Under the pieces are notes generated by a model, which saw only the letters and a program-made list of their open reading frames with translations, made no database searches and had not been told where the DNA came from. Below are positions 30,139-58,641 of a stretch of DNA of 64,000 bases, piece after piece. Within the stretch, counting starts at the first letter, position 1. Each line of letters begins with the position of its first letter. Source of the DNA: Acidobacteriaceae bacterium (GTDB taxonomy: Bacteria; Acidobacteriota; Terriglobia; Bryobacterales; Bryobacteraceae); the NCBI GenBank assembly GCA_019240405.1, contig JAFAYL010000034.1, positions 1 through 64,000 of the forward strand, read 5' to 3'. A program made the translations under genes and the position numbers.

Positions 30139-30158
30139 CTTTGTATGATAAGCACACT

Positions 30159-40313: not shown

Positions 40314-41284
40314 AATGTGGATCGCAGATGATCTTTGTACTTGCGCTACTCGGTCCCTTAGTTTTCGGACAATCGCAGGAGAAAAAGTCTGAAAGACCGG
40401 AGTATTATGATGAGCCGCAATTCACCGTGGCCGGCATGGCGGACTACACCTATCGCGGGGGCCACGGTTCGGATATGGTTCTACGCTCGACGGAGGAGCT
40501 GACCAAGGCGACGGCAGAGCTAGGCCATGTGGATGGAAATCCCGCGAATGCTCTTGCTGCGGTACGTGCATACCAGCATGCAGCGGAACTAGATCCGAAC
40601 GAGCCGAATCTTTTCCATTGGGGCGCTGAATTGCTCGAGCATCATGCGGTTGATCCAGCAATCGAAGTGTTCACGAAGGGCAATCGACTGTTTCCACGTT
40701 CCTCTCGAATGCTGCTTGGCTTAGCCACAGGATTCTATGCGCGGGGTTCTTACGATGACGCCGCGCGCCGGTTCTTTGAGGCCGCTGACCTGAATCCGAG
40801 TGATCCCGAGCCTTACCTATTTCTGGGAAAAGTGCAAGCCCGCGAGATCACGGAATTAAATGGCTATCTCGAAAGGCTCAGGCGATTTGCCAAAATTCAA
40901 CCCAGCAATGCGCAGGCCAATTACTACTACGCTGTCGCGCTTTGGAATCACCGAAGGAATGAGGATGAGGTAAAACGCCTAATAAATAAAGCTATCGAGC
41001 TTGATCCACATCTCGGGGTTGCCTATCTGCAACTCGGCATCGTTTATGCAGATCAGAAGAATTTGCCGTCTGCAATCGCGGCTTATCGGAAAGCGATCGA
41101 GGTTGATTCGCAACTGGAGGAAGCGCACTATCGCCTTTCGCAGGAGTATGCGATGACTGGCGAGAAGGCCGAAGCTGAAAAAGAGCTCGCTCTATACAGG
41201 GAATTGTCAAAGAGGTCCGCAGCGCAGCGAGAACGTGATCGAGCCGAGCTGAAACAATTTGTGATTGAACTAAAATCTCACTGA
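40310..41284 (+). CDS. TPR-repeat protein, exported
   Basis: 324 residues, GTG start overlapping the TGA of the upstream gene. The N-terminus SQMIFVLALLGPLVFGQSQ is a signal peptide. The rest is TPR units, such as ARGSYDDAARRFFEAADLNP and YADQKNLPSAIAAYRKAIEV. Translational coupling and the shared TPR type indicate that it works with the FG-GAP/ASPIC protein. It ends six bases before the convergent nucleoside hydrolase gene. Confidence 0.88.
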   Translation: MKCGSQMIFVLALLGPLVFGQSQEKKSERPEYYDEPQFTVAGMADYTYRGGHGSDMVLRSTEELTKATAELGHVDGNPANALAAVRAYQHAAELDPNEPNLFHWGAELLEHHAVDPAIEVFTKGNRLFPRSSRMLLGLATGFYARGSYDDAARRFFEAADLNPSDPEPYLFLGKVQAREITELNGYLERLRRFAKIQPSNAQANYYYAVALWNHRRNEDEVKRLINKAIELDPHLGVAYLQLGIVYADQKNLPSAIAAYRKAIEVDSQLEEAHYRLSQEYAMTGEKAEAEKELALYRELSKRSAAQRERDRAELKQFVIELKSH

Positions 41285-41290
41285 GAAAGG

Positions 41291-42352
41291 TCAGTGCGCT
41301 GCGGGAGTCCTGGCGCTCATCAGGCGCACGAACATCTCGTAAAACTTTTCGATGTCCAGATCCACTTGGATCTCGACGGGCTGTACGGTGATTTTCGGCT
41401 TATCATTCTCTGTCCAAATCAGCGTGTTGCCGTATCCTGCTCCTCGATCGAGGTCCACATTCATATAACGGGTCTCGCGTTTCGTGATCAGGCTGGGGTC
41501 GATCCACGCGGCGGCCGCAAGCTCGTCCCACATGTAGTTTGCGCGGTAAAAGCGCGAGAGATAGCGCGCCAAATCGGTGTCGCTGGCTGCGATCCGGTTC
41601 ATGGCCTGCTGGGATAAACGAGTCTTAATCGAAATGTCGACCGTCGTGCAGACAATTTTCTTCCATGGCGCGCGCAGCACGACGCTTGCGGCCTCTGGAT
41701 CGAACCACATATTGAACTCATGACGCGGATTATTGGCGAACTCGGGATCATCGCTCTGTGGGCTGATGCTTCCACCCATAAAGACCAATCCTTGAGCTAA
41801 TTCCGGGAACTGAGGATCGAGCGAGATCGCAAGCACGAGATTGGTCATCGGTCCGCCCGCGTAGATGGTAATTTGATGCGGGTATTTGCGTACCATTCGC
41901 ACCAGGAAATGCGCGGCATCTTCGTCTGACGGCTTTGTGTGCGGCTGACCTTCCGCAAGAGGCGGAACAACAGAAGCTTCGTGCCACCAACGCTTATCCC
42001 ATGCGCCGATGTACGCGAGTTGTCCATAGCGCTGTTCCCAAACCTCTGTTGCCTCGCGCGTGTTCACGAGCGGAAAAACCGCACCGGGCACAACGGGAAT
42101 ATCCGTTCGGCCGATGATCTCGAGCAGGCGCAACGTATGGGCGATTTCTTCATCGCGCCATTGATCTCCAGTGACAACCGTGATCCCAAGGACACTAACA
42201 TCCGGCGACTGAATCATTACTAGGAGCGATTGCAGGTCGGTGCCGCCGGGACCGGCGCAATCCTGGTCGAAAATCACTTTACGTCGCTGGCCGAACGCAG
42301 CAGAACTCGTGAGCAGCAACAGGGCTGCCAAGCAGGGTGTGAGATGTCGCAT
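41291..42352 (-). CDS. Exported nucleoside hydrolase-like protein
   Basis: 353 residues with a signal peptide (MRHLTPCLAALLLLTSSAAFG), so it acts outside the cytoplasm. The inosine-uridine nucleoside N-ribohydrolase family is recognised by IYAGGPMTNLVLAIS, LVFMGGS and HEFNMWFDPEAASVVL. The N-terminal calcium motif, normally DTDxGxDD, is DQDCAGPGGTDLQS, an expanded variant that keeps two or three acidic residues. Splitting nucleosides to base and ribose outside the inner membrane would feed the NCS1 permease. It lies ten bases behind the TonB-receptor-like gene, probably in one operon. Confidence 0.85.
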   Translation of the reverse strand: MRHLTPCLAALLLLTSSAAFGQRRKVIFDQDCAGPGGTDLQSLLVMIQSPDVSVLGITVVTGDQWRDEEIAHTLRLLEIIGRTDIPVVPGAVFPLVNTREATEVWEQRYGQLAYIGAWDKRWWHEASVVPPLAEGQPHTKPSDEDAAHFLVRMVRKYPHQITIYAGGPMTNLVLAISLDPQFPELAQGLVFMGGSISPQSDDPEFANNPRHEFNMWFDPEAASVVLRAPWKKIVCTTVDISIKTRLSQQAMNRIAASDTDLARYLSRFYRANYMWDELAAAAWIDPSLITKRETRYMNVDLDRGAGYGNTLIWTENDKPKITVQPVEIQVDLDIEKFYEMFVRLMSARTPAAH

Positions 42353-42362
42353 GTGCGTCGAA

Positions 42363-45300
42363 TTAGAAGAGTAATTTCAACGCAAACTGAATCACGCGTG
42401 GATTGTTGACCGTGGAGCTGATTGCCCCGAAGGTTGCCGGAGAATTGAAATCGGCTCCAGGCAAACCGAATTGCGGGTGATTGAAGAGGTTGAAGAACTC
42501 TGCACGGAAATCGAGCGTCGTCGCTTCGCGCGGAAGCGGGAAATGCTTGATCACCGAGAAATCAGTATTGATGAAGTCAGGCCCTGAGACCGGTGTGCGC
42601 GATGCGTTGCCGAGCTCATCGGCAGGCGGCTGCGCGAAGCAACCGGTGTTAAACCAACGGCTCAAGCTCGAATTGCCAAGGCTCGGATTGCACGTTTGAT
42701 TTGGCCGGATAAAGCTATTTCCGTCGTTTTGGAAATTAACTCCGGAAGTGTTGCTGCTATCTACAATGAAAATCGGGAACCCGGAAGTGGCTTTTTCGAT
42801 TACGGTCAGCTCCCAGTGGCCCAGCAGCGTGTCCAGTGGACCGCTCCATGAACTTCCGAACCGCCTACCTTTGCCGAACGGCAACTGATAAATCACGCTA
42901 GCCGTGAAATCGTGATTGAGGTTGATTTGAGAAAGAGCCCAATCAAGCTTCTGCCAGCCCGGGAGCGGGAAATATAGCGCACCTATAGGACTGCCCAATC
43001 CATCTGTGAAGCCGTTGTCGTGAACGCTTGCATAGGTGTATCCGATCAGGCCGTAGAGACCGTACCGGCTGCTCTTGGTTTCCGCCTTGACCTGAAACGA
43101 GTTGTAGTGAGCTCTTCCAATGTCGTTGACATTGTAAATAGTCGAGAAGGGGAACTGCGGATACGGCAGGCCGAACGGAGCGCCGCCGGGCCCGCAGCCC
43201 AACGTGTATCCGGAGACCACGCCGCAAGCCGCGGGGGATCCGATATTCAGATTGTTCCCGTACAACAAAATGTGAGAGCTGCGCGAGCCAGCGTACCCCA
43301 GAGTCAAGACGATGTTGCCAGGAATTTGGCGCTCGACGTTGACATTGAACTGTTGAACGCGCCCGTGCTTAAAATCGAGGTTCTGAGAAACGAATGCGCC
43401 TGCGAAATTCTGCGGAGTCGGAGGGCTGGTGAAAATCGGGAATCCGGATGACATGCTTATCGCGGATGGCGTTTTCCCGTACAGCGTCGCGCAGGCAGCC
43501 GTTGCGAATGTGCAACCACCACTGAAGGCGAACGAACCAGATTCTGCAAAGAAGGGTGGATTTTGCCACAATCCCTGGGCGCCTTGGCTCCATGCCGCAT
43601 CGTGGAAGATGGCATAACCTCCGCGGATAACGGTGTTCTGGCTTCCGAACGGTTTCCAGGCGATTCCAATCCGTGGCTCGAGGTCAGTCTTGTCCATTTG
43701 AATTCCGGCCGAAGCTCCTGCATTCTGGCCAGCGATCAGGATCTGATGATTGGACGGGTCGAAGTCGGCCTGTCGATTGTGAGCTTCGGTGATCGGAGTG
43801 ACCAAAGCCCATCCCAAGCCCAAGTTCAACGTCAGGTCCCTGGTGACCCGCCAATCGTCCTGGACAAATGGACGGTACATTTTCCAGCGGCGGCCTGTGA
43901 TGTCGCCATCGAATGTCTGGTCATGAATGGCAAGACTGGGCAAGCCGAGCAGAAAATCCGCCATTGCCTCACCGCCCCATGCACCGGTGAAGATCCAGTA
44001 TCCGTCCTGAAAACCAATCGCCCGAACGTTCATCTGGTTAGCCCGAATTTCCCCGCCCACTTTGATGTCATGATTGCCGCGAACCATATCGAAGGAGTCG
44101 GCTATAGAAAAGACGTTCGTACCCCCCTGGAAGGGAGAATATCCGCGATCTCCGAGAGACCAATAGCCGCCGTCTAACTGAGTGGAGGTCATTCCGCAAC
44201 TGTCGCCACCTAAATTGGCGCCGGGAATACCTAGGGCGTTCGAAATGCAACTGTAGCTGCCCTGAGAGGTGATGTAGTTGAAAATCCGGTTGTAGCCGCC
44301 GCTGATCTGATTCACTGTGTTCGGCGAGAAAACGTGAGTTTCGGATGCGGCGACGTTACGTCCGTGGTTGAGGATGCCTTGATTGCTGCCGAACGGACTA
44401 GCTTCCGCGAACCCAGGCGAGCCGCCCGGCACGTAGGATACAGCCTGATCGTAGCTGAAGCGCGCGAATGCGGTGTCTTTGGTCGAGAAATTATGATCCA
44501 CCCGGACATCAAACTCTCCTTCGTTCAGTTTTCTAACGGGCTCGTTTACGTAGTTATAGCCGAGAGCGGGATTATTCGCATCAGGCAGCGGATAAAAATT
44601 GATCATCTTGGCTGCGATCGGGTTGATCAGGCCAGCCGGAATTTTGTTGCAGTTCACGCCAGGACTCTGGCTTCCATTCGGCGCAACGGGATTAGGATTA
44701 CCCGCGCTGTCGCATTGAAAAGCTGTATTGGGCGCCCCCGTCACGTTTGGATTAATGAGAAATCCCGATCGCGGATTTCCGAACGCGTCGTGGGTGAAGT
44801 CGCCCGTGCGCATGGCAGCGCTCGGCACCAAGCCGGTGAACGGTATGCCGTGCCGCTGAAACTTGTTCTGAATATCAGCGAAGAAGAACGTTTTGTCTCT
44901 GCGAATGGGACCGCCGATTGAGCCGCCGAACTGATTCAAGTTGAATTTTTCCGTGTTCGTCGCGAAAAAGCTGCGCGCATCAAGAGACGTATTGCGAAAG
45001 AATTCAAAGAGCGATCCGTGCAGAGTGTTCGTTCCGGACTTTGTCGTCACGAGAACCGTCGGTCCGGCACGCGTGCCCCACTCGGCCGAGTAGTTGTACG
45101 TCAGAACCTTGAACTCCTGGATGGCGTCAATCGAAGGCAGAATCGCAATGCCACCGGCGGTCAGCTCATTGTTGTCGTTGCCATCAAGTAGCCAATCCGT
45201 GCTGTTCGCACGTGATCCGCCTACTGAGAGCGAAAAAGAGCCGCGGGCGGCGACTTCACTGTCTGCGCCGCTCGTGAAGAAACTGCCGGGATTGGTTTCT

Positions 45301-45797
45301 TGAATCGTGCCCGGCGTGAGCGTCGCCAATTGAACAAAATCTCGGCCATTCAAAGGAAGCTCGGCGACTTGCTGCGACGTAATCACCTGGCCCAGAGTCG
45401 GATTCGTTGTCTCGACTGCTACTGGTGTCGCGCTTACTTCGACCGTTTGCTGCACGGAAGCGGGTGCAAGTATAAAATTCACCTCGCGCTGTTCGTCGAC
45501 TTGGAGGCGGACATCCTTCTGCTCCACGGTCTGAAAACCCTTCAGCTCGGCCCGAACCGTGTAATTTGCCACACCCAACAACGGAATAATGTAATGCCCG
45601 GCCTGGTCGGTGACGGCATCCCGGATGAGTCCTGTCGCTTCTGCAGTTACCGTGACCTTCGCGCCAGAGACCGCCGCGCCCGTAGCATCGGACACTGTGC
45701 CCGAGATGCTTCCTGTCGCCTGTCCGTAAAGCAACGGACAGAGGAACAACACAAGCGAATAAATGATCGCCGCTTGCCACGCTCTTCTACTCAGCAT
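42363..45797 (-). CDS. TonB-dependent receptor-like (Oar-type) outer membrane protein
   Basis: 1144 residues from ATG 45797, with AAAGGGG just before it; an ATG at 45818 is the alternative. The signal peptide (SLVLFLCPLLYGQ) is followed by a carboxypeptidase regulatory-like domain (about 25-110, GSISGTVSDATGAAVSGAKV), a plug domain (VITSQQVAELPLNGRDFVQL) and a long beta-barrel ending in a Phe (VIQFALKLLF). This architecture is a hallmark of Acidobacteriota. Its substrate is unknown, but the flanking nucleoside hydrolases point to nucleosides or nucleic-acid fragments. Confidence 0.92.
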   Translation of the reverse strand: MLSRRAWQAAIIYSLVLFLCPLLYGQATGSISGTVSDATGAAVSGAKVTVTAEATGLIRDAVTDQAGHYIIPLLGVANYTVRAELKGFQTVEQKDVRLQVDEQREVNFILAPASVQQTVEVSATPVAVETTNPTLGQVITSQQVAELPLNGRDFVQLATLTPGTIQETNPGSFFTSGADSEVAARGSFSLSVGGSRANSTDWLLDGNDNNELTAGGIAILPSIDAIQEFKVLTYNYSAEWGTRAGPTVLVTTKSGTNTLHGSLFEFFRNTSLDARSFFATNTEKFNLNQFGGSIGGPIRRDKTFFFADIQNKFQRHGIPFTGLVPSAAMRTGDFTHDAFGNPRSGFLINPNVTGAPNTAFQCDSAGNPNPVAPNGSQSPGVNCNKIPAGLINPIAAKMINFYPLPDANNPALGYNYVNEPVRKLNEGEFDVRVDHNFSTKDTAFARFSYDQAVSYVPGGSPGFAEASPFGSNQGILNHGRNVAASETHVFSPNTVNQISGGYNRIFNYITSQGSYSCISNALGIPGANLGGDSCGMTSTQLDGGYWSLGDRGYSPFQGGTNVFSIADSFDMVRGNHDIKVGGEIRANQMNVRAIGFQDGYWIFTGAWGGEAMADFLLGLPSLAIHDQTFDGDITGRRWKMYRPFVQDDWRVTRDLTLNLGLGWALVTPITEAHNRQADFDPSNHQILIAGQNAGASAGIQMDKTDLEPRIGIAWKPFGSQNTVIRGGYAIFHDAAWSQGAQGLWQNPPFFAESGSFAFSGGCTFATAACATLYGKTPSAISMSSGFPIFTSPPTPQNFAGAFVSQNLDFKHGRVQQFNVNVERQIPGNIVLTLGYAGSRSSHILLYGNNLNIGSPAACGVVSGYTLGCGPGGAPFGLPYPQFPFSTIYNVNDIGRAHYNSFQVKAETKSSRYGLYGLIGYTYASVHDNGFTDGLGSPIGALYFPLPGWQKLDWALSQINLNHDFTASVIYQLPFGKGRRFGSSWSGPLDTLLGHWELTVIEKATSGFPIFIVDSSNTSGVNFQNDGNSFIRPNQTCNPSLGNSSLSRWFNTGCFAQPPADELGNASRTPVSGPDFINTDFSVIKHFPLPREATTLDFRAEFFNLFNHPQFGLPGADFNSPATFGAISSTVNNPRVIQFALKLLF

Positions 45798-45882
45798 GCA
45801 CGCCCCTTTCATCACCACCCGCGCGAGTGTCGAAGGAGGATTCTCCCTGAGGGAATCGAACTGAAGACAGGTGATCGGATCT

Positions 45883-45912
45883 AGTATCTTCGCTTGCCAC
45901 GGCAGGTGTCAA
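45883..45912 (-). promoter_or_regulatory. Candidate promoter of the receptor/exported hydrolase operon
   Basis: On the minus strand a perfect TTGACA (45907-45912) is followed after 18 bases by GATACT (45883-45888). It lies in the 142-base gap between the cytoplasmic hydrolase gene and the receptor gene, giving a leader of about 80 bases. This suggests the receptor has its own promoter in addition to any read-through from the permease. Confidence 0.5.
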
Positions 45913-45939
45913 GACGTGGCTTCATGCGCCAACACCGAT

Positions 45940-46908
45940 TCACCTTAGCGCTTCCATCACGAGAGCTTTCCACCGCTCCACATCTAGCTTCCAGCAAATC
46001 TTTATTCTCGCTTCGCGCTTGAGCGTTTCGGACCAGACAATACAATTCCGAGGATCGTGCGCCACGTTTAGCCGGTCGACAACCGTCATGCCTCGCGTTA
46101 ATTCGCTTGCAGTTTCGATATCAACGTAATGATCGCCAGATTCCAGGCACAACCCAGGTCGAAGCAGGATTCCCATTGCTACCGGATCGGGAAGAGCGAT
46201 GCCGATCTGCCCGGTTTGAATTTTGTTTGCCTCAATAGCTACCCTATTAGCGGAAATGGTGAAATCCGCGAGAGGGCTGCCGAAGCGTTTCAGCTTTGCA
46301 ATGTCTAGAGTATCGAAGACGGCGGAGCCTCGGGAAAGCTGCCATCCAATCATCTCAATAGGAAGGCCCGAATGGAAGACGATGCGAGCGGCTTCAGGAT
46401 CGACCCAAATATTGAACTCGGCAGCCGGCGTGACATTCCCTTCACAGCAAGGTGCGCCTCCCATGACAACGCACCGTGAAACATCTGCGACCAAGCTAGG
46501 CTTTTCGCGAAGCGCAAGCGCAAGATTCGTAAGCGATCCCAGCGTAATGATTTCGATACCGGGGCGGGTGGCGATGATTTTCAGAATTGCGCTCACGGCG
46601 TGATCGCGCTCTGCTTCGCGGCGCGTGGGCATATATCCGTGGTCGCCTAAGCCGTCGCTTCCGTGAAACCAGTCTGCGATTTCCAAGCTGCGAGACAGCG
46701 GTTTATCCGCTCCACGAAACACAGGCACGTCCGAACCGCAGAGCTCAGTCGTGTAGAGCGCATTTCTGGTGGCTTGATCTACGCCAACGTTACCAGCGAC
46801 TACCGTGATCGCTGCAACCGTCACCTCTTTATTTCGAAGCGCCATGATAAGCGCAACTGCATCATCCGAAGCCGTATCGGTGTCGATCAGAATGTGTCGC
46901 GAGCGCAT
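45940..46908 (-). CDS. Nucleoside hydrolase, cytoplasmic
   Basis: 322 residues, no signal peptide. The calcium-binding DTDTASDDAVAL, ITVVAGNVGVDQATRNAL, ITLGSLTNLALAL, VVMGGAP and EFNIWVDPEAARIV are all standard for the nucleoside N-ribohydrolase (RihA/IunH) family. Base preference cannot be read from sequence, but neighbouring dihydropyrimidine genes favour pyrimidine ribosides. It starts four bases after the permease gene, so the two are one operon. Confidence 0.93.
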   Translation of the reverse strand: MRSRHILIDTDTASDDAVALIMALRNKEVTVAAITVVAGNVGVDQATRNALYTTELCGSDVPVFRGADKPLSRSLEIADWFHGSDGLGDHGYMPTRREAERDHAVSAILKIIATRPGIEIITLGSLTNLALALREKPSLVADVSRCVVMGGAPCCEGNVTPAAEFNIWVDPEAARIVFHSGLPIEMIGWQLSRGSAVFDTLDIAKLKRFGSPLADFTISANRVAIEANKIQTGQIGIALPDPVAMGILLRPGLCLESGDHYVDIETASELTRGMTVVDRLNVAHDPRNCIVWSETLKREARIKICWKLDVERWKALVMEALR

Positions 46909-46912
46909 CGAG

Positions 46913-48346
46913 TCAGACTCGCCGGTTTCGCATGGCGGTCCAATATACTAGCGCTGCGACTGCAAAACCGACGAACCAGGCGTAATCGTATAGCCATCTC
47001 AGCGACGGAACGATCAGGCCACACAGGGCGACCGTGACACCGGTACCGAGCGCACCAATGGCTCGCAGGTTCACCCCACTGCGGTACTCGTAAACACTAC
47101 CGCGCGTGTACAGCGCCGCGAGATCGAGATTCGTTTTTCGTATCAGGAAGTAGTCCGTAATCATGACTCCGGCGATTGGCCCCAATAGACCGGAATACCC
47201 AACTAGCCACCCAAAGATGTAGCTGTTGAAATCTGTCAAGAGCTTCCAGGGCATCATGAGCAGTCCCGCAACACCGGTAATCAGCCCGCCCGTGCGGAAC
47301 GAGATCCACCGCGGATTCAAGTTCGAGAAGTCATTCGAAGGCGAGACTACGTTGGCGGCTACGTTTGTGTTCAGCGTCGCCACGAGTAGCGCAATCAGAG
47401 CAATTGACGCAACGAGCGGCTGCTGAAATTGTCCGAGCAGCGCAACCGGATCCCAAATCGCATGCCCGAACAGCACCACCGATGCGGAGGTTACGGCGAC
47501 GCCGATAAAGGCGTAGAGTGTCATGGCTGGCGGAAGGCCGATTGCCTGCCCGATGATCTGCGCCTTCTGTGACTTCGCATAGCGCGTGAAATCAGGAATA
47601 TTCAGGGCGACGGTCGCCCAGAACCCAACCATACCGGTGAGGGCCGGGATAAAGAATCGAATGAATTCTGCGGTGGTTTTGAAGCGGCTAGGACTGCTCA
47701 ACACCGGCCCGAACCCGCCAGCTTTTCTTGCGATCCACAAAAGCAGGAGCAACCCGATCCCGAGCATGAAGGGAGCGCCAATACCTTCGAGAAATTTGAT
47801 TGTCTCGATACCTCGACAGATCACGATGATGTTCAGCAGCCAGAACGCGAAGAAACAAATCCATGGCGCAGCTTGATCGTTTGCCGCGGCCGGAAATAGC
47901 ACCCGCAGCATGGAGGAAATTGCCTGCCCGCCGATCCAGGTTTGTATGCCGAACCAGCCACACGCGACAACGGCGCGCAACACAGCGGGAACATTTGCTC
48001 CCCGCACTCCGAAGGAAGCTCGCACAAATACCGGAAACGGAATGCCGTACTTAGCGCCGGCGTGCGCGTTCAACAGCATCGGAATGAGCACGATCAGATT
48101 GCCGAGAAGAATCGTCGCGATCGCTTGTTTCCAGCTCATTCCGCCTGCGATCAGACCCGAGGCGAGCATGTACGTGGGAATGCAGACGCTCATCGCCACC
48201 CAAAGCGAGCAATAGTTGTACACACCCCACGTGCGTCTTGCCGGAGGCACCGGCGCGAGATCTGGATTATAGAGGCTTGGGTCGAGGCGGGCATCAGCGA
48301 CGCTGAAGGCTCTCGCGCTGTGATCCTCAGCTCCTTGCCGGACCAT
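46913..48346 (-). CDS. NCS1-family base/hydantoin permease
   Basis: 477 residues with about twelve hydrophobic segments. The N-terminal LYNPDLAPVPPARRTWGVYN, MSWKQAIATILLGN and YGIPFPVFVRASFGVRGANVP are diagnostic of the NCS1 family (Mhp1, uracil, allantoin and cytosine carriers), inner-membrane cation symporters. With a nucleoside hydrolase behind it and reductive pyrimidine genes divergent to it (42 bases), uracil, thymine or a related ring is the likely substrate. Confidence 0.93.
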   Translation of the reverse strand: MVRQGAEDHSARAFSVADARLDPSLYNPDLAPVPPARRTWGVYNYCSLWVAMSVCIPTYMLASGLIAGGMSWKQAIATILLGNLIVLIPMLLNAHAGAKYGIPFPVFVRASFGVRGANVPAVLRAVVACGWFGIQTWIGGQAISSMLRVLFPAAANDQAAPWICFFAFWLLNIIVICRGIETIKFLEGIGAPFMLGIGLLLLLWIARKAGGFGPVLSSPSRFKTTAEFIRFFIPALTGMVGFWATVALNIPDFTRYAKSQKAQIIGQAIGLPPAMTLYAFIGVAVTSASVVLFGHAIWDPVALLGQFQQPLVASIALIALLVATLNTNVAANVVSPSNDFSNLNPRWISFRTGGLITGVAGLLMMPWKLLTDFNSYIFGWLVGYSGLLGPIAGVMITDYFLIRKTNLDLAALYTRGSVYEYRSGVNLRAIGALGTGVTVALCGLIVPSLRWLYDYAWFVGFAVAALVYWTAMRNRRV

Positions 48347-48388
48347 AGCTCAGAGTAGTTTGTCCGTTCGCGAGATCGCAAGCGCGGC

Positions 48389-49792
48389 ATGTCGCATAAA
48401 ATAGAAGATCTGAAGGCTTGTGACCGTTCGCAGGCTGGTACGCGAAGCTTGCCTCAATTGAAAAACACGAATCCGGCGAATGGAAGCCTTGCAGAGCTGC
48501 TGCCGCCGTTAACTGATCACGAAGCGCTAGTAGAAGCCAACAGATGTTTGTTTTGCTTTGACGCTCCGTGTACGCATGCCTGCCCGACGCACATTGACAT
48601 TCCAGGTTTCATAAAGAAGATCGCGACCGATAATATCCTGGGCTCAGCGCGCACGATCCTGGAAGCTAATCTCCTTGGAGCGACGTGCGCGCGCGTGTGC
48701 CCCGTTCAGGAATTGTGCGAAGGAGCGTGCGTGCTCGGAGCCGAGCATAAACCGATCATGATCGGCAGACTGCAACGCTACGCTATGGATCACGTTTACC
48801 GCCGCGGCATCCATATCTTCCAGTACGCCCCTTCGACAGGTAAACGCATTGCGATCATCGGTTCAGGTCCGGCTGGGCTGTCTTGCGCCGGCGAACTCGC
48901 GCGGCTTGGCCATTCCGTTACCGTCTTTGAAAAACGCGAACTTACGGGCGGTCTTTCCACTTACGGCATCATCACGCTTCGAGAGCCTATGGAAATCGCA
49001 CTCGCCGAGGTCGAAATGGTGAAGCGCATGGGCGTGGAGTTTCGGACCGGAGCCGAGCTGTGTTCCAGCCTCACGCTTTCAGAGCTGCGGATGCAATCCG
49101 ACGCAATTTTCCTGGGCTGCGGCTTGGGGTCAACCCCACAATTGCGAATTCCGGGCGAAGAACACGTTGTGGATGGCCTTGCGTACATCGAGCAGAGCAA
49201 GCTCGATCCATCACATCTCGATGTCGGACAAAATGTAATCGTGATCGGCGCCGGCAACACGGCCATCGACTGCGCGACGATTGCAAAACGCCTCGGCGCA
49301 CGCCAGGTCACGATTGTGTATCGCCGCTCAGATCGCGAGATGACTGCCTACGAGCACGAACACGAATTTGCAAGGGAAGAAGGGATCGAGTTCCAGTTTT
49401 TGACCCAGCCTGTGCGTATTCTGGCCGAGAACGGCATTGTGTTTGGACTGGCGTGCGTCCAAATGGCTCTAGGCGAGTCCGATTCATGCGGCCGCCGAAC
49501 TTCGCAGCCTGTGCCGGAATCGGAATTTATAATGCCGGCCGATCAAGTCGTCAAAGCGATCGGTCAGGAGAAGCCGTCACTCGCCTCGCTGCTTGGGCTC
49601 GCGACCGCACCCAGCGGCCATATCGCGGTGAACGGTAATTTTGAGACGAACATTCCAGGACTGTATGCCGGAGGCGACGCGATCCGATCATCGGGAGCTT
49701 GTTCCACGGTCATGGCCGTTGAGGATGGTAAACTTGCTGCTCGCGCGATTCACAAGCAACTGACCGGGCTGCCCGTTCCGGAGGCGCTCTAG
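48389..49792 (+). CDS. preT: NAD(P)-dependent dihydropyrimidine dehydrogenase, PreT subunit
   Basis: 467 residues. N-terminal Fe-S cysteines lie in CLFCFDAPCTHACPTHIDIP and CARVCPVQELCEGACVLG; RIAIIGSGPAGLSCAGELAR binds FAD and VIVIGAGNTAIDCATIAKRL binds NAD(P). This is the GltD-like electron-input subunit that passes electrons to PreA for reduction of uracil or thymine. The order preT-preA with a single base between the genes matches the known two-subunit enzyme. Confidence 0.93.
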   Translation: MSHKIEDLKACDRSQAGTRSLPQLKNTNPANGSLAELLPPLTDHEALVEANRCLFCFDAPCTHACPTHIDIPGFIKKIATDNILGSARTILEANLLGATCARVCPVQELCEGACVLGAEHKPIMIGRLQRYAMDHVYRRGIHIFQYAPSTGKRIAIIGSGPAGLSCAGELARLGHSVTVFEKRELTGGLSTYGIITLREPMEIALAEVEMVKRMGVEFRTGAELCSSLTLSELRMQSDAIFLGCGLGSTPQLRIPGEEHVVDGLAYIEQSKLDPSHLDVGQNVIVIGAGNTAIDCATIAKRLGARQVTIVYRRSDREMTAYEHEHEFAREEGIEFQFLTQPVRILAENGIVFGLACVQMALGESDSCGRRTSQPVPESEFIMPADQVVKAIGQEKPSLASLLGLATAPSGHIAVNGNFETNIPGLYAGGDAIRSSGACSTVMAVEDGKLAARAIHKQLTGLPVPEAL

Positions 49793-49793
49793 T

Positions 49794-51179
49794 ATGGCCG
49801 ACCTTCATATCAATTTCTCCGGAATCAGATCGCCAAACCCGTTCTGGCTGGCATCAGCCCCTCCGACAAATTCCGGAGCGCAGGTTCACAAAGCCTTCGA
49901 GGCCGGATGGGGCGGCGCGGTTTGGAAGACAATAGGGGCTCCTGTTTTGAACGTGTCGAATCGGTATGGCGCGTGGCATTACGGCGAACAGAAAATGGTC
50001 GCGATCAACAACGTCGAATTGATCTCCGACCGGCCTATCGAAATCAATCTGCGCGAAATCCGGGACGTAAAGCGGAACTGGCCGGATCGCGCCGTCATCG
50101 TTTCAGCGATGGTGGAATCGAAGCCCGAAGCGTGGCACGATGTTGTGCGCCGCATCGAGGATACTGGCGCAGACGGAATCGAGTTGAACTACGGCTGTCC
50201 TCACGGCATGAGCGAACGCGGTATGGGAAGCGCCGTGGGGCAGGTGCCGGAGTATTGCGAAGAAATCACGCGCTGGGTGAAGGAAGCCGCCCGAATCCCG
50301 GTTATCGTCAAGCTCACTCCCAACATCACAAACATCGTTAGCCCCGCACGGGCTGCCGCGAGCGCCGGCGCTGACGCTTTGTCACTGATAAACACGCTGA
50401 ACTCGATCATGGGGGTTGATCTTGACACGCTCGAAATCATGCCCAGCATTGCCGGGCAAGGGGGGCATGGCGGATATGCAGGACCGGCCGTGAAGCCGAT
50501 CGCGCTTAATATGCTGTCTGCTTTGGGAACCGATCCAATCGTTGCGGCTTCCGGCATCCCGATTTCCGGAATGGGAGGCATCTCCACCTGGAAGGACGCC
50601 GCCGAATTTCTGCTCTTAGGCGCAAGCAGCCTGCAGGTCTGCACAGCGGTAATGCATTACGGATTTCGCATTATTGAGGATCTCTGCGATGGCCTTTCGA
50701 ATTGGATGGATTCGAAAGGCTTCAAAACTGTGGCGGAAATCACGGGCAAGTCGCTCAATCGTGTCTCCGAGTTCAAAGACCTGGATCTGTCCTTCCGCAC
50801 AGTAGCGCGAATCAAGCCGGACAAATGCATCAAGTGCAATCTGTGTTATGTAGCTTGCAACGACAGTGCACATCAGTGTATCGATCTCATCACCGGCGCG
50901 GGCAGCGTTGTCCAACCTTATTCGTATAGCGTGCGCTCGAACGGAAAGGAGGATGCGGTTAGTACTCGTCCTCAGCCGCGTGTTCGCGAAGAAGATTGCG
51001 TGGGTTGCCGCCTTTGTTACAACATCTGCCCTGTGCATGAGTGTATTGAAATGGTTGAGCTTCCGCCGTACCGCGCTTCCGTTACGTGGGATCAACTCTC
51101 GCAATCCCAGCGTGAGGTGACGGAGGACTGGGAGGCGATGAACCGCTACCGGGAACAGCAGAAGATTCACATTCATTAG
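49794..51179 (+). CDS. preA: NAD(P)-dependent dihydropyrimidine dehydrogenase, PreA subunit
   Basis: 461 residues. A dihydroorotate-dehydrogenase-like FMN barrel begins INFSGIRSPNPFWLASAPPT and contains the active-site loop NYGCPHGMSERGMG. Two C-terminal 4Fe-4S motifs follow (CIKCNLCYVACNDSAHQC and CVGCRLCYNICPVHEC). The family is known to reduce uracil and thymine to 5,6-dihydro products; the reverse reaction is possible. The next gene follows after 11 bases. Confidence 0.95.
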   Translation: MADLHINFSGIRSPNPFWLASAPPTNSGAQVHKAFEAGWGGAVWKTIGAPVLNVSNRYGAWHYGEQKMVAINNVELISDRPIEINLREIRDVKRNWPDRAVIVSAMVESKPEAWHDVVRRIEDTGADGIELNYGCPHGMSERGMGSAVGQVPEYCEEITRWVKEAARIPVIVKLTPNITNIVSPARAAASAGADALSLINTLNSIMGVDLDTLEIMPSIAGQGGHGGYAGPAVKPIALNMLSALGTDPIVAASGIPISGMGGISTWKDAAEFLLLGASSLQVCTAVMHYGFRIIEDLCDGLSNWMDSKGFKTVAEITGKSLNRVSEFKDLDLSFRTVARIKPDKCIKCNLCYVACNDSAHQCIDLITGAGSVVQPYSYSVRSNGKEDAVSTRPQPRVREEDCVGCRLCYNICPVHECIEMVELPPYRASVTWDQLSQSQREVTEDWEAMNRYREQQKIHIH

Positions 51180-51190
51180 GAGCTTCGCCC

Positions 51191-52570
51191 GTGTCGCTGC
51201 TAATCAAGAATGGCGAAATAGTCACCGCCGACTCGCGCTATCACGCCGATATTTACGTCGAGAACGAAACTGTCACGCGCATCGGCAAGGATCTCGAATC
51301 CTCGCCTGGGACCGAGATTATCGAGGCGGGCGACAAACTAATTTTTCCTGGTTTCATCGATCCGCACGTACACGTTTATCTGCCGTTTATGGCGACATTC
51401 GCCAAGGATACACACGAGACGGCGAGCATCGCAGCGCTTGTCGGCGGTACGACCACTTACATCGAGATGTGCTGTCCTTCGCGGATGGATGACACGCTCG
51501 AAGGTTATCATCTGTGGAAATCGAAAGCCGAAGGCAACAGTGCTTGCGATTACACGTTCCATATGGCGGTGACGAAGTTTGCTGGGAACACTGAAGCTCA
51601 GCTTCGCGAAATCGTGAGCGATGGCATCTGCTCTTTCAAGATTTTTCTCGCTTACAAAAACTTCTTCGGAATAGATGACGGCGAAATGTACCAGACGCTC
51701 GCGCTGGCCCGCAGACTCGGCGTAATTGTTACCGCCCACTGTGAAAACGCGGAGATCATAGCGCGTCTGCAGGAGTCGCTTCTTGCGGAAGGCAAAGCCG
51801 GCCCTGAGTGGCATGAGCCGAGCCGTCCGGAATCTGTCGAGGCTGAAGGAACGAATCGTTTCGCAACTTTTCTCGAACACACTGGCGCGAGTGGGTATGT
51901 GGTTCATCTCTCCTGTGAGGCGGCTTTGAAGGCTGCACTGTCCGCGCGAGAACGCGGAGTGAAGATTCATGTCGAGTCAGTTGTCCCGCATCTGCTGCTC
52001 GATAAGTCGTATGCCGAAAGGCAGGGACTGGCAGGAATGGAATACGTGATGTCGCCCCCGCTTCGCGACAAGCGCAATCAAAACGTACTCTGGAATGCGT
52101 TATCGGCTCAGCTCATAGACACGGTCGCTACCGACCATTGCCCATTCGATAAGGAGCAGAAGCTTCTCGGGAAAGAAGCCTTCACGCAAATTCCGAACGG
52201 CATTCCTGGAATTGAGGAGCGCGTGAATCTTCTCTATACATGCGGTGTCAACCGGGGCAGGCTCGATTTGCACCGCTTTGTCGACGCGGCTAGCACGCGA
52301 GCAGCCAAGCTGTTTGGCCTTTTCCCGCGAAAAGGGACCATCGCGATCGGCAGCGATGCCGACCTAGTCGTCTATGATCTCGCCTATCGAGGTGCCCTCT
52401 CTGCCAAGACCCAGCACTCGAATAATGACTACAATGCCTTCGAAGGATTCGAGATCGAGGGCCGTCCCTCTGTCGTGACTGTACGCGGCAAAATTCAAGT
52501 GCGAGACGGAGAGTTCGTGGGTGATCGCAAGCTTGGTCGTTTGCTGAAGCGCGAACCGCAGTATTTCTAG
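51191..52570 (+). CDS. hydA: Dihydropyrimidinase (D-hydantoinase)
   Basis: 459 residues, cyclic amidohydrolase. Metal ligands are seen as FIDPHVHVYLP (H-x-H), the carboxylated Lys in SFKIFLAYK, TAHCENAEI and VVHLSCEAAL (His), and the catalytic Asp in VATDHCPFDK. It opens dihydrouracil or dihydrothymine to N-carbamoyl-beta-alanine or its methyl analogue. Allantoinase is a less likely reading, because preTA lie immediately upstream. A four-base gap follows. Confidence 0.93.
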   Translation: MSLLIKNGEIVTADSRYHADIYVENETVTRIGKDLESSPGTEIIEAGDKLIFPGFIDPHVHVYLPFMATFAKDTHETASIAALVGGTTTYIEMCCPSRMDDTLEGYHLWKSKAEGNSACDYTFHMAVTKFAGNTEAQLREIVSDGICSFKIFLAYKNFFGIDDGEMYQTLALARRLGVIVTAHCENAEIIARLQESLLAEGKAGPEWHEPSRPESVEAEGTNRFATFLEHTGASGYVVHLSCEAALKAALSARERGVKIHVESVVPHLLLDKSYAERQGLAGMEYVMSPPLRDKRNQNVLWNALSAQLIDTVATDHCPFDKEQKLLGKEAFTQIPNGIPGIEERVNLLYTCGVNRGRLDLHRFVDAASTRAAKLFGLFPRKGTIAIGSDADLVVYDLAYRGALSAKTQHSNNDYNAFEGFEIEGRPSVVTVRGKIQVRDGEFVGDRKLGRLLKREPQYF

Positions 52571-52573
52571 GCT

Positions 52574-53827
52574 ATGCTGCTCGACCCAAAACGAACTGTT
52601 GCCGAATTAAAAGAGCTGCGCAAACTCACGAGCGACGAAAATGGGGCGCAGCGCGTCGCCTGGACCGACACGTGGCTGGCAGCGCGAGCGTGGCTCAAAT
52701 CGAAGCTTGCCGATTTACCGGTAGAGCAGCATTACGATGCGGCTGCGAACAATTGGATCACGTTGACCGGCGAGTCGCCGAAAGCGCTGCTCCTCGGCGG
52801 ACATCTTGATTCGGTTCCGAATGGGGGCTGGCTGGACGGCAGTCTGGGCGTGCTCTCGTCATTAGAAATTGTGCGCCGACTCGCGCGCCAGTACAATGGG
52901 CGACCACCCGTGACGATCCGTATGGTGGACTGGGCGGATGAAGAGGGCGCCCGTTTTGGTCGCAGCCTGTTCGGATCTTCCGCGTTTGCCGGTACGCACA
53001 GTATTGAAGCCGATCGCACGCGCACAGATAAAGATGGCATTAAGCTCGAAGATGCTCTGCGGCGCTGTGGAGTAGAAATTGACGACATCGGAGATGCGGG
53101 CCGTGAACGCGAACACGCTGCCGCGTATCTCGAACTTCACATTGAACAGGGTCCTGTTTTAGAGCGCATGGAGCGACCGCTCGCAGTCGTTCTCGGCACA
53201 AAAGGAGTCGAACGGCACTTGGTAACCTTCCATGGGCAAGAGGCGCATTCCGGATCGACGCCGATGAATGCGCGTCGCGATGCGTTAGCGGCTGCTGCCA
53301 AACTGGCGCTCGAAATCCGTCCGATTGCGAAGAAGCATTCCGATGCCGTGTGCACAGTGGGCAGCCTCAAAACATTTCCGGGAATCGTAACTGCTGTCGT
53401 CGGCCGGTGCGAGATGGCGCTCGATCAACGCGACCTTGACGCCGGTATCCTCGCGAGCATGCATCGGGAGGCGCGTGAAGCCAGTGAGCGCTTCGCGCGC
53501 GAGGAGAAATGTACGGTCGAATGGTCTCGCATTTGGAGTATCGAGCCTGTACCCTTTCACCCCACTCTCATTCGCCTTTGCGCGGAAGCTATTTCCGAAA
53601 GCGCCGGCGATGCTCCGCGCTTACCGAGCGGCCCCTTACACGACGCCGCTGAAGTAAGCCGCTCCGGCATTCCCACCGTTATGATGTTTGTCCAGTCGCT
53701 CGGGGGGATTAGCCACAACAAAATCGAGGACACAAAAGAGGAGTACATTGAATTGTCGGTGGCGGCGCTGGACCGGCTTGCCAGTAAAACAGTTTCTTGG
53801 ATTTTGAGCGAGACGAATAGAAAATAG
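52574..53827 (+). CDS. Beta-ureidopropionase / N-carbamoyl amino-acid hydrolase (M20 family)
   Basis: 417 residues. The bimetallic site shows LLLGGHLDSVPNGGWLDGSLG (first His and bridging Asp), WADEEGARFGRSLFGS (Glu pair), LELHIEQGPVLE (His) and GGISHNKIEDTK (C-terminal His). The dimerisation lid lies around 215-330. It should hydrolyse the carbamoyl group of N-carbamoyl-beta-alanine, giving beta-alanine, CO2 and ammonia. The N-carbamoyl-L-amino acid hydrolase branch is very similar, so the position in a preTA-hydA operon is the main guide. Confidence 0.9.
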   Translation: MLLDPKRTVAELKELRKLTSDENGAQRVAWTDTWLAARAWLKSKLADLPVEQHYDAAANNWITLTGESPKALLLGGHLDSVPNGGWLDGSLGVLSSLEIVRRLARQYNGRPPVTIRMVDWADEEGARFGRSLFGSSAFAGTHSIEADRTRTDKDGIKLEDALRRCGVEIDDIGDAGREREHAAAYLELHIEQGPVLERMERPLAVVLGTKGVERHLVTFHGQEAHSGSTPMNARRDALAAAAKLALEIRPIAKKHSDAVCTVGSLKTFPGIVTAVVGRCEMALDQRDLDAGILASMHREAREASERFAREEKCTVEWSRIWSIEPVPFHPTLIRLCAEAISESAGDAPRLPSGPLHDAAEVSRSGIPTVMMFVQSLGGISHNKIEDTKEEYIELSVAALDRLASKTVSWILSETNRK

Positions 53828-53838
53828 AGAGATAGTTT

Positions 53839-55356
53839 ATGCCCGTCGTTGATGTTCCAGTAACTTTGCGAAATGTGACGCACTGGATTGGCGGAAAGCT
53901 TGTGGAATCAAATTCCGCCCGTTCCGGGATAGTGTGGAATCCCGCAACCGGCGAGGAACAGGCGATTGTGCAGTTTGCCAGCAGTGAAGAAGTAGATCAA
54001 GCCGTTTCCGCTGCTAAAGATGCCTTCGAAGGCTGGCGCGCCACGCCTCTTTCGCGCCGGGCGGAAATCATGTTTCGGTCGCGCGAGCTCATTCATAGCA
54101 ACCGGGCGAAAATTGCAGAGCTCCTCACGGCCGAGCACGGAAAAACACTTACTGACGCGATGGGCGAAGTCGCTCGCGGGCTTGAAAATATTGAATTCGC
54201 CTGTGGAGTTCCACATCTTCTAAAGGGCGGCTTTTCTGAACAGGTGAGCCGCGGGGTCGACGTCTACCAGATTCGACAGCCGCTCGGCGTCGTCGCGGGC
54301 ATCACGCCTTTTAATTTTCCGGCGATGGTGCCTATGTGGATGTTCGCGAATGCCATCGCATGCGGAAACACATTCGTTTTGAAGCCGTCAGAGAAAGATC
54401 CGTCGGCTAGTCTGCTTATTGCCGAGCTGCTGCAGCGCGCAGGGGTGCCGGACGGAGTTTTCAACGTTGTTCAAGGCGATCGCGTAGCCGTCGATCGCTT
54501 GCTGGAGCATCCCGACATTAAAGCCGTGAGCTTTGTCGGCTCGACGCCGGTCGCGAAATTGATCTACGAGACCGCAACCCGCCACGGGAAACGTGTTCAG
54601 GCTCTCGGGGGCGCCAAGAATCACATGCTCGTTTTGCCGGATGCGGATATAGGTATGGCAGCGGACGCTGCTGTCTCGGCGGGCTATGGATCGGCAGGCG
54701 AGCGATGCATGGCAGTTTCGGTCGTCGTGGCGGTTGGCAACGTAGCAGACCCACTTATTGACGCGATTCAGGAGCGAATGGCGCGTATCAGAGTCGGACC
54801 GGGGCTGGAGGAAGGTAATGAAATGGGTCCGCTCATCACCCGCGAGCATCGCGATCGGGTGGCCTCTTATCTCGATTGCGCTGCATCGGAAGGAGCTACG
54901 CTTGCGGTGGATGGGCGCCGCGATCAGGTCAGCAAGCGCTCAGGTTTTTTCCTCGCTCCGTCACTGCTCGATAACGTGAAGCCCCGCATGCGCTGCTACG
55001 ACGACGAAATTTTCGGCCCAGTGCTGAGCGTTGTGCGCGTCGAAAGCTATGAAGAAGCACTACGAATCATCCATGATAACCCCTACGGTAACGGGATAGC
55101 CATTTTCACGCGGGATGGTGGCGCCGTTCGCCAGTTTCAGTTCGATGTGGAGGTCGGTATGGTCGGTGTCAACGTGCCCATTCCGGTTCCGATGGCTTAT
55201 TACAGTTTTGGAGGCTGGAAGGCGTCGCTGTTCGGCGATCTGCACATGTACGGCCCAGAGGGAATCCAGTTTTACACCAGAGCAAAGGTCGTCACAAGCC
55301 GCTGGCCCGATCCGAGCACTAGTAAAGTGGATCTCGGGTTTCCGCAAGCGCACTGA
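53839..55356 (+). CDS. mmsA: CoA-acylating (methyl)malonate-semialdehyde dehydrogenase
   Basis: 505 residues, aldehyde dehydrogenase superfamily. GVVAGITPFNFPAMVPMWMF, the catalytic Cys in GSAGERCMAVSVVVAVG and the closing FGGWKASLFGDLHMYGPEG are characteristic of MmsA, which releases CO2 and makes acetyl-CoA or propionyl-CoA with NAD and CoA. As the last gene of the preTA operon it would finish uracil (malonate semialdehyde) or thymine (methylmalonate semialdehyde) breakdown. The transaminase step between is not encoded here. Confidence 0.95.
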   Translation: MPVVDVPVTLRNVTHWIGGKLVESNSARSGIVWNPATGEEQAIVQFASSEEVDQAVSAAKDAFEGWRATPLSRRAEIMFRSRELIHSNRAKIAELLTAEHGKTLTDAMGEVARGLENIEFACGVPHLLKGGFSEQVSRGVDVYQIRQPLGVVAGITPFNFPAMVPMWMFANAIACGNTFVLKPSEKDPSASLLIAELLQRAGVPDGVFNVVQGDRVAVDRLLEHPDIKAVSFVGSTPVAKLIYETATRHGKRVQALGGAKNHMLVLPDADIGMAADAAVSAGYGSAGERCMAVSVVVAVGNVADPLIDAIQERMARIRVGPGLEEGNEMGPLITREHRDRVASYLDCAASEGATLAVDGRRDQVSKRSGFFLAPSLLDNVKPRMRCYDDEIFGPVLSVVRVESYEEALRIIHDNPYGNGIAIFTRDGGAVRQFQFDVEVGMVGVNVPIPVPMAYYSFGGWKASLFGDLHMYGPEGIQFYTRAKVVTSRWPDPSTSKVDLGFPQAH

Positions 55357-58623: not shown

Positions 58624-58641
58624 CTGTGCTCCTCCATGCAG

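Follow-up and report, generated by a model that had tools for sequence, protein, structure and literature searches.

A predicted nucleoside-acquisition module beside a reductive pyrimidine pathway in an Acidobacteriota genome

Do the nucleoside and pyrimidine genes clustered in this genome form one locus that leads from the outer membrane to acyl-CoA? The original prediction, made for the window (the whole 64,000-nucleotide stretch of DNA that was analysed), proposed a single complete utilization locus of nine genes. All nine are present on the claimed strands with short gaps, and profile scores back their families. The single locus was not supported as proposed, as OAR and NHx (at least 50% identity) adjoin preA in only one of 120 fetched loci. 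The sequence and its relatives indicate instead that the block is two modules, each conserved separately: module 1 (36720–45818) and module 2 (45940–55356). The best explanation, which we consider probable, is that module 1 is a nucleoside-acquisition kit, module 2 a pyrimidine breakdown pathway, and that the two have been joined. This explanation is built on gene content, protein families, conservation, neighbours and co-occurrence.

Layout of the two modules

Module 1 is composed of CRT and a TPR protein, both absent from the original prediction, which are convergent with OAR–NHx. In module 2, NHc–NCS1 is divergent from PreT–PreA–HydA–M20–MmsA. The features are as follows.

36720–40313, plus strand: CRT, an FG-GAP/ASPIC-UnbV/TPR protein of 1197 residues, convergent partner of OAR–NHx (Pfam)
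40310–41284, plus strand: TPR protein of 324 residues with a signal-like N-terminus (Pfam)
41291–42352, minus strand: NHx, exported nucleoside-hydrolase-fold protein with a variant active-site motif (PF01156, motif, model and fold match)
42363–45818, minus strand: OAR, predicted receptor, an Oar-type outer-membrane barrel with an N-terminal CarboxypepD_reg domain (PF25183 and PF13620)
45883–45912, minus strand: promoter-like site into OAR, TTGACA-18-GATACT (consensus match only)
45940–46908, minus strand: NHc, cytoplasmic nucleoside hydrolase with the canonical DxDxxxDD (PF01156, motif)
46913–48346, minus strand: NCS1 permease (TIGR00800 over cut-off)
48347–48388: divergent gap of 42 bp between NCS1 and PreT
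48389–49792, plus strand: PreT (Fer4_20 and Pyr_redox_2, identity to E. coli PreT)
49794–51179, plus strand: PreA (NF006183 over cut-off)
51191–52570, plus strand: HydA, dihydropyrimidinase/D-hydantoinase (TIGR02033 over cut-off, match to 1gkp)
52574–53827, plus strand: M20 amidase, candidate beta-ureidopropionase (TIGR01879 over cut-off, solved relatives)
53839–55356, plus strand: MmsA, CoA-acylating (methyl)malonate-semialdehyde dehydrogenase (TIGR01722 over cut-off)

The minus-strand genes had been read as one operon, which is probably not the case. The gap between NHc and the receptor is 121 bp long and holds a promoter-like site on the minus strand (45912–45883) that agrees with 10 of 12 consensus positions; because of this site, separate transcription of NHc/NCS1 and OAR–NHx is probable. 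Two promoter-like sites occur in the 500 bp region, against 0.1 in shuffles, and the other one lies on the plus strand inside NHc. The 42 bp gap between NCS1 and PreT contains no sigma-70-type site by consensus.

Enzymes of the pyrimidine pathway

The predicted reductive pyrimidine pathway with its NCS1 permease is supported by the enzyme families of module 2. PreT has Fer4_20 and Pyr_redox_2 domains and shares 35% identity with its E. coli counterpart (150/433), and PreA scores 659 bits with NF006183 (cut-off 335) and shares 41% identity with the E. coli protein (171/422), so that the pair is assigned as dihydropyrimidine dehydrogenase. A supposed defect of PreA at the position of the mammalian DPD cysteine was rejected as a family trait, since Val, Met or Ile occupies it in every one of the 116 motifs that a PreA pattern matched in the 120 loci, with Val in E. 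coli. HydA qualifies as a dihydropyrimidinase (TIGR02033, 491 bits; cut-off 393) and MmsA as a malonate-semialdehyde dehydrogenase (TIGR01722, 722 bits; cut-off 448.5). M20 scores 289 bits with TIGR01879 (cut-off 204) and reaches no ureidopropionase equivalog cut-off; among its relatives of solved structure are carbamoylases, an allantoate amidohydrolase and a beta-alanine synthase. In the relative G590, a copy with 76% identity heads purine genes. NHc is a canonical nucleoside hydrolase with an intact DxDxxxDD (PF01156, 290 bits; cut-off 34.2). The permease scores 403.5 bits with TIGR00800 (cut-off 353), with hydantoin and allantoin permeases as its nearest relatives.

Some of these affinities would also suit a module 2 that serves hydantoin, allantoin or other ureides rather than uracil: HydA matches 1gkp, a solved D-hydantoinase, over its full length (845 bits), M20 belongs to the hydantoinase/carbamoylase group, and the nearest solved relative of NCS1 is the hydantoin permease Mhp1. 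However, neither PreT–PreA nor MmsA has an obvious function in the use of hydantoin, and HydA lies above the dihydropyrimidinase cut-off and below the allantoinase cut-off (240.9 versus 357.9). We regard the ureide reading as very improbable.

For the preferred pyrimidine pathway, the remaining step is the transamination of beta-alanine, for which the original prediction had reported the enzyme missing. This stands for the block, in which no aminotransferase lies; however, relatives carry one within the preTA locus, and this genome has a candidate elsewhere (C46:58284–59510), which shares 70–77% identity with the aminotransferases of 15 further preA loci. The nearest relative of this candidate with a solved structure is a taurine:2-oxoglutarate aminotransferase. 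The beta-alanine step is probably served here in trans.

The receptor, the exported enzyme and their neighbours

OAR scores 719.5 bits with PF25183 (cut-off 30), carries the PF13620 domain at its N-terminus, and shows 70–76% identity to the OAR proteins of seven relatives. The genome contains 64 PF25183 matches, and 48 of them cover at least 600 of the 838 positions; an Oar-type receptor by itself is thus weak evidence, and receptor adjacency alone was rejected as support. No plug family was found in OAR at an E value of 0.001. The OAR model was set aside for the plug, the pore and the fold search, as its mean pLDDT is 50.4, with residues 93–263 below 50. A search of solved structures with the OAR profile hit a single chain, at residues 31–121, and no barrel. 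Nucleoside uptake by OAR would be a prediction from its genetic context. The partner CRT has a twin-arginine-like start (RRNFL), and its exact start codon is uncertain.

The second member of the pair, NHx, has a signal peptide and looks Sec-exported. Its PF01156 score is 192 bits (cut-off 34.2), and the predicted structure (pLDDT 88.3) has the nucleoside-hydrolase fold, with a Z score of 34.4 against 4kpo and of 33–34 over approximately 290 residues against inosine–uridine nucleoside hydrolases (plant NRh, RihA/B and others). The hallmark DxDxxxDD is absent, and a variant motif takes its place. The same variant is shared by 113 of 116 NHx homologues and by none of 32 canonical paralogues; it has Ser or Thr at the second-last hallmark Asp (113/116), a three-residue insertion and a Trp before the late Asp. 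One of the search patterns was [ML]WDELAAA, so that the conservation of the WDE stretch is in part a result of selection by the search. Two of the three sequences that lack the variant are short (296 and 312 residues), and the third has 371 residues (L241:12354–13469). NHx keeps the fold but not the hallmark motif, which makes the proposed release of the base by the exported hydrolase uncertain. An active site so widely common and non-canonical makes a clear enzyme test possible.

The receptor and the exported hydrolase do travel as a pair, with nucleoside, sugar and nucleobase genes around them in relatives. The set compared holds 79 NHx loci, the best 79 of 246 relatives; these are not 79 genomes, since seven accession prefixes occur twice, and at least 15 of the loci are the same stretches as loci in another fetched set. 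Among these best 79 of 246, OAR is found in 53 loci, the CRT cluster in 44, the TPR-protein cluster in 46, the ribokinase family and canonical nucleoside hydrolase in 26 each, aldehyde dehydrogenase in 16, DeoC in 13 and NCS1 in nine, with the kinase and DeoC clusters named by NCBIfam from one representative each. Of the 60 loci in which the order could be checked, 39 have OAR immediately upstream of NHx (strict, gap below 400 bp), and a ribokinase immediately precedes OAR in 13 of 30. Thirteen NHx loci have both DeoC and aldehyde dehydrogenase; as a control, ribokinase and DeoC occur in 0/120 preA loci. In four loci (L232, L235, L238 and L256), OAR–NHx is accompanied by NCS1 and a dihydropyrimidinase relative, and in G435 by uricase and Mo-hydroxylase subunits. 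Besides pyrimidine genes, module 1 is accompanied by sugar and purine genes. In the window genome, the ribokinase most similar to that of the module (71% identity) lies on another contig; DeoC relatives are only 32–37% identical over part of the protein, and none lies in the window. These neighbours suggest that module 1 is a nucleoside-acquisition kit of Terriglobia-type Acidobacteriota; the transport steps and the activity and substrate of NHx are inferred. In the open-licence literature, searched with the phylum named 'Acidobacteria' only, no paper turned up for this phylum on the uptake of nucleosides or on nucleoside hydrolases that are exported.

The altered motif bears on the substrate. 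In the Crithidia IUNH, the Asp at the second-last hallmark position contacts the ribose 2'-OH, and its replacement by Ser or Thr would suit 2'-deoxynucleosides, one possible substrate class. Module 1 would then scavenge DNA-derived nucleosides, with DeoC and aldehyde dehydrogenase burning the deoxyribose, in keeping with their joint occurrence beside NHx and the absence of DeoC from the preA loci. However, loci with ribokinase, whose name marks it as a ribose enzyme, outnumber those with DeoC two to one (26 versus 13 of the best 79 of 246), the window has no DeoC and the genome no close one, and the insertion in NHx could restore the contacts. We hold this preference to be unlikely. We are similarly doubtful that NHx is no nucleosidase at all, acting on another riboside or glycoside or only binding a ligand, with modules 1 and 2 being neighbours that share no substrate. 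The changed motif would fit, as would the rarity of the join beside preTA (1/120) and the 48 Oar-type matches, which make accidental adjacency easy. A precedent is HopQ1, a nucleoside-hydrolase-like protein with a different changed motif that neither cleaved nor bound standard nucleosides (PMC3608555). Against this, OAR–NHx is repeatedly surrounded by canonical nucleoside hydrolases, ribokinase, DeoC and nucleobase genes, three layouts show the join to preTA, and NHx co-occurs with preA.

Joining of the modules and comparison with known systems

The joined two-module reading was examined in 120 preA loci fetched with flanks from 123 preA-positive relatives (G251, G299 and G189 being left out); absences among them are weak because many loci are cut by contig ends. 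The receptor and exported hydrolase not being kept beside preTA, which was to count against the original prediction, is largely what we observe for direct adjacency, with G590 and G422 as exceptions. In G590, the one direct join, OAR–NHx lies with PreTA and a divergent purine operon. In G422, the join runs through a 504 bp overlap of contig ends that is 97% and not 100% identical, and holds if the contigs are neighbours; the window is the third layout. A link of the G422 kind was rejected for G463, where the OAR and NCS1/PreT contigs both stop at ends and do not overlap, and no contig-end overlap was found for G420, G421 and G435. In G419 and G429, of the same genus, NCS1 is divergent from PreT and OAR–NHx is absent from the fetched stretch. 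Thus, conservation beside preTA largely failed as the main support, and conservation of the modules and co-occurrence were used instead. Within the family, NHx (at least 60% identity) and preA co-occur in 14 of 17 genomes versus 49 of 219, a count that ignores relatedness and leaves out G474, which has a broken NHx (three pieces, 53–63%) and no preA.

In the proposed mechanism, OAR would carry nucleosides, or short pieces of nucleic acid, through the outer membrane, possibly helped at the surface or in the periplasm by CRT and the TPR protein. NHx would split nucleosides into base and (deoxy)ribose outside the inner membrane, NCS1 would import the pyrimidine base (or nucleoside), and NHc would act on nucleosides arriving intact. 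PreTA–HydA–M20 would release nitrogen and beta-alanine (or beta-aminoisobutyrate), and an aminotransferase encoded elsewhere, together with MmsA, would lead to acetyl- or propionyl-CoA. Besides transport and the role of NHx, we infer the regulation and the trans use of the aminotransferase. A bolder version is unlikely: Terriglobia-type Acidobacteriota would own a system in which an Oar-type receptor with CRTAC1-like/TPR partners feeds a new class of exported NH-fold enzymes that cleave 2'-deoxynucleosides from environmental DNA, and in the window lineage this system would have become linked to reductive pyrimidine degradation as a source of nitrogen.

Many soils harbour abundant Acidobacteriota, and the locus suggests that soil bacteria may draw carbon and nitrogen from extracellular nucleosides or DNA. 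A predicted surface nucleoside kit and pyrimidine breakdown, usually apart, are joined in one soil Acidobacteriota genome. The receptor–enzyme pair with its sugar and nucleobase genes gives one Oar-type receptor a concrete predicted ligand and suggests a role for ASPIC-UnbV/TPR surface proteins.

In Bacteroides, SusC/SusD-type ribose and nucleoside loci combine an outer-membrane transporter with nucleoside hydrolase and ribokinase, whereas the window has an Oar-type barrel with CRTAC1-like and TPR partners, and no SusD among the named families. The 10 kb around E. coli preTA, unlike the window, contain no dihydropyrimidinase, nucleobase permease, nucleoside hydrolase or outer-membrane receptor, and cytidine deaminase (cdd) lies approximately 1.3 kb upstream of preTA. 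Compared with inosine–uridine nucleoside hydrolases, NHc shares the canonical motif, whereas NHx differs by its signal peptide, insertion, Ser/Thr and Trp. HopQ1 (PMC3608555) resembles NHx in its fold and changed N-terminal aspartate motif; however, it is an injected protein with DxxxDxDD, and NHx has another variant, Sec-export-like features and a catabolic setting. The kinase/aldolase deoxyribose catabolism of PMC6365646 has a counterpart in some relatives, where a sugar kinase and DeoC adjoin the module, whereas the window module has no such genes beside it and the receptor and exported hydrolases are attached. Finally, the bacterial Pyd/PreTA clusters of PMC7332683 resemble module 2 in their split dihydropyrimidine dehydrogenase, dihydropyrimidinase, candidate ureidopropionase and malonate-semialdehyde dehydrogenase; relatives have the aminotransferase in the locus, whereas here none lies in it, and the window adds a nucleoside hydrolase, an NCS1 permease and an outer-membrane receptor module.

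Gene content and pathway enzymes

The block is an ordinary reductive pyrimidine operon adjoining a widely conserved nucleoside-linked module, and the latter is the more interesting object. The reading frames and families of the original prediction are all in place with strong family scores. Its functional guess is reasonable, and its view of the block as a single complete locus goes too far; it also caught half of the nucleoside-linked module, the receptor and the exported hydrolase, and left out the two genes facing them. The genes are arranged as follows.

36720-45818, module 1, comprising the next four genes:
CRT, 1197-aa FG-GAP/ASPIC-UnbV/TPR protein whose N-terminus is twin-arginine-like, convergent with NHx
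TPR protein of 324 aa, convergent with NHx
OAR, minus strand, Oar-type outer-membrane barrel (PF25183)
NHx, minus strand, exported nucleoside-hydrolase-fold protein
45940-55356, module 2, comprising the next two groups:
NHc (cytoplasmic nucleoside hydrolase) and NCS1, minus strand
PreT, PreA, HydA (dihydropyrimidinase/D-hydantoinase), M20 amidase and MmsA, plus strand, divergent from NHc-NCS1

The plus-strand genes are separated by gaps of 1 to 11 bases. The minus strand carries, in order, NCS1, NHc, a 121-bp gap, OAR and NHx. OAR-NHx may form a separate transcription unit, since the gap contains a sigma-70-like site directed into OAR (a consensus match only). To the left of module 1, positions 30003-31478 encode a chitinase-like family 18 glycosyl hydrolase, possibly exported.

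In OAR, the barrel and N-terminal domain are both clear in Pfam; no plug family was found there, and no solved barrel structure matched. The predicted model is poor (mean pLDDT 50.4, with residues 93-263 below 50). Nucleoside import is proposed for OAR through guilt by association.

Among the pyrimidine enzymes, the alignment of HydA (51191-52570) with the solved D-hydantoinase 1gkp spans the entire protein and scores 845 bits, the next solved relative reaching 418 bits. The source of 1gkp is given as Thermus sp.; the likeness would then reflect either transfer of the gene or a wrong label on the source strain. At the position of PreA (49794-51179 in the window) that aligns with the catalytic cysteine of pig DPD, Cys671, each of the 116 PreA motifs detected in the 120 preA loci (L053-L172) has Val, Met or Ile, and E. 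coli has Val. M20 is a candidate β-ureidopropionase, and of all the enzyme assignments this one is the least secure. Two loci from the genus of the window encode a class III aminotransferase above the NF004718 cut-off, flanked by M20 and MmsA in L145 and by HydA and MmsA in L137; close copies (79-80%) occur in preA loci L076 and L140. The block itself encodes no aminotransferase, and the genome of the window has six class III aminotransferase matches. The best candidate for supplying the absent enzyme in trans would be 58284-59510 on another contig, C46, which is 70-77% identical to aminotransferases within 15 other preA loci and whose nearest solved relative is taurine:2-oxoglutarate aminotransferase.

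Association of the two modules

By itself, the nearby receptor does not stand out from chance: its barrel family has 64 matches in the genome, and 48 of these cover at least 600 of 838 positions. Counting the genome of the window, PreA was found in 61 of 396 sampled genomes of the phylum and 64 of 237 of the family. We examined 120 of the 123 other preA loci, each with up to ~9 kb of flank per side. At 50% identity or more, OAR, NHx and the TPR protein are present at a single locus (L108, genome G590), and NHc at that level also at one (L145, genome G419, from the genus of the window). Conservation of the receptor and exported hydrolase beside preTA, on which the original prediction itself was to be judged, is thus mostly absent (1/120). 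PreA in the family forms two groups, with 20 of 63 loci (L093-L155) at least 70% identical to that of the window and the 43 others mostly near 57%; the groups differ in gene order and in HydA and MmsA.

Across the family, preA is present in 14 of the 17 genomes whose NHx is at least 60% identical and in 49 of the other 219 (one-sided Fisher p = 1e-6, relatedness ignored); it is also present in 10 of 10 genera with such NHx vs 29 of 76 overall (p = 2e-5, again ignoring relatedness). G423, G436 and G428 have the NHx-OAR pair with no preA match; G436 and G428 are 71% and 78% complete.

In G590 (L108/L204/L236), PreT-PreA-HydA-NCS1-OAR-NHx lie on one strand, with TPR and CRT convergent to them. 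The genes running divergently from PreT encode an M20 amidase (76% to that of the window), xanthine dehydrogenase (large subunit above cut-off, small subunit below), guanine deaminase, OHCU decarboxylase and uricase; the PreA belongs to a different clade from that of the window (58%). In G422, from the genus of the window, the preTA contig terminates within a CRT gene (66% to that of the window), with a four-base overlap between this gene and the M20 stop; the contig carrying OAR-NHx terminates within CRT from the opposite side. The two ends (L130 1-504 and L209 14295-14798) overlap by 504 bp, gapless and correctly oriented, at 97.0% identity. The simplest reading would be one locus, PreT-PreA-HydA-M20-CRT-NH-TPR convergent with NHx-OAR, the contig break likely arising from strain variation in the assembly; possibly, the overlap instead represents two near-identical CRT copies. 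Given G590, and with G422 read as one locus, the join of the modules is seen three times, in the window and two relatives, each time in a different layout.

Other links to nucleobase breakdown occur in G435, where uricase and xanthine-dehydrogenase-type Mo-hydroxylase subunits are encoded on the same strand as OAR-NHx, and in L232, L235, L238 and L256, where NCS1 and a dihydropyrimidinase relative lie upstream of OAR. A luciferase-like oxidoreductase adjoins NCS1 in these four loci, L240 and L270 (TIGR03842 above cut-off in L256); a carbon-nitrogen hydrolase and a dihydropyrimidinase relative are also present in some of the six. PreTA had no match in these loci, where the oxidoreductase could take its place at the first step of pyrimidine breakdown.

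Conservation of the nucleoside-linked module

A description of the OAR-NHx-CRT-TPR module was not found in the open-licence literature on 'Acidobacteria'. OAR is 70-76% identical to that of the window in seven relatives, and NHx 53-72% in 14. Scanning an NHx alignment against genome contigs yielded, as the best of 246 relatives, 79 loci, of which 77 are labelled Acidobacteriota at various ranks; L258, one of the two others, is labelled Nevskia and carries the NHx of G436, from the family of the window. Clustering of 836 ORFs from these 79 loci placed NHx in 77 (117 ORFs, one to five per locus), with the neighbours listed below.

Loci containing each neighbour, among the 79 NHx loci (best of 246 relatives)
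OAR: 53
TPR protein: 46
CRT: 44
PfkB kinase: 26
Canonical nucleoside hydrolase: 26
Aldehyde dehydrogenase: 16
DeoC: 13
Ureide-permease-like: 12
NCS1: 9
Carbon-nitrogen hydrolase: 7

One representative each of the PfkB kinases and DeoC scored above the NCBIfam cut-offs for ribokinase and deoxyribose-phosphate aldolase, respectively. OAR is immediately upstream of NHx in 39 of the 60 loci where order is visible, and ribokinase immediately upstream of OAR in 13 of 30. As a control, the ribokinase query matched 0/120 preA loci (1.98 Mb) vs 29/79 NHx loci (1.26 Mb), and the DeoC query 0/120 vs 14/79 in the same sets. L211, L206 and L209 hold one or two extra canonical nucleoside hydrolases between CRT and the TPR gene, unlike the window; in L222 (G428), EutB and EutC (ethanolamine ammonia-lyase) lie directly upstream of the OAR-NHx pair on the opposite strand.

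The NHx motif and its possible ligand

NHx has a signal-peptide-like start and matches PF01156 at 192 bits. Its predicted model is confident (pLDDT 88.3) and gives Z scores of 33-34 against nucleoside hydrolases of plants and other sources. DxDxxxDD is the motif of the canonical paralogues encoded in the same loci (29/32 by pattern match). NHx has instead [DN]-x-D-x-x-G-P-x-x-[TS]-[DN], which is longer by three residues and occurs in 113/116 homologues vs 0/32 canonical proteins. The EFN stretch is retained in 115 of 116 homologues, as is the late Asp within WDE, a motif partly selected by a search pattern. Such uniformity speaks for a functional protein whose ligand has changed rather than for decay. 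Specificity for 2′-deoxynucleosides is possible, because the replaced hallmark Asp presumably contacts the ribose 2′-OH in Crithidia IUNH and because DeoC and aldehyde dehydrogenase occur together in 13 NHx loci; the 26 loci with ribokinase speak for ribose being processed as well. HopQ1, with its own altered motif, serves as a warning that a motif change can signal a wholly different substrate (PMC3608555).
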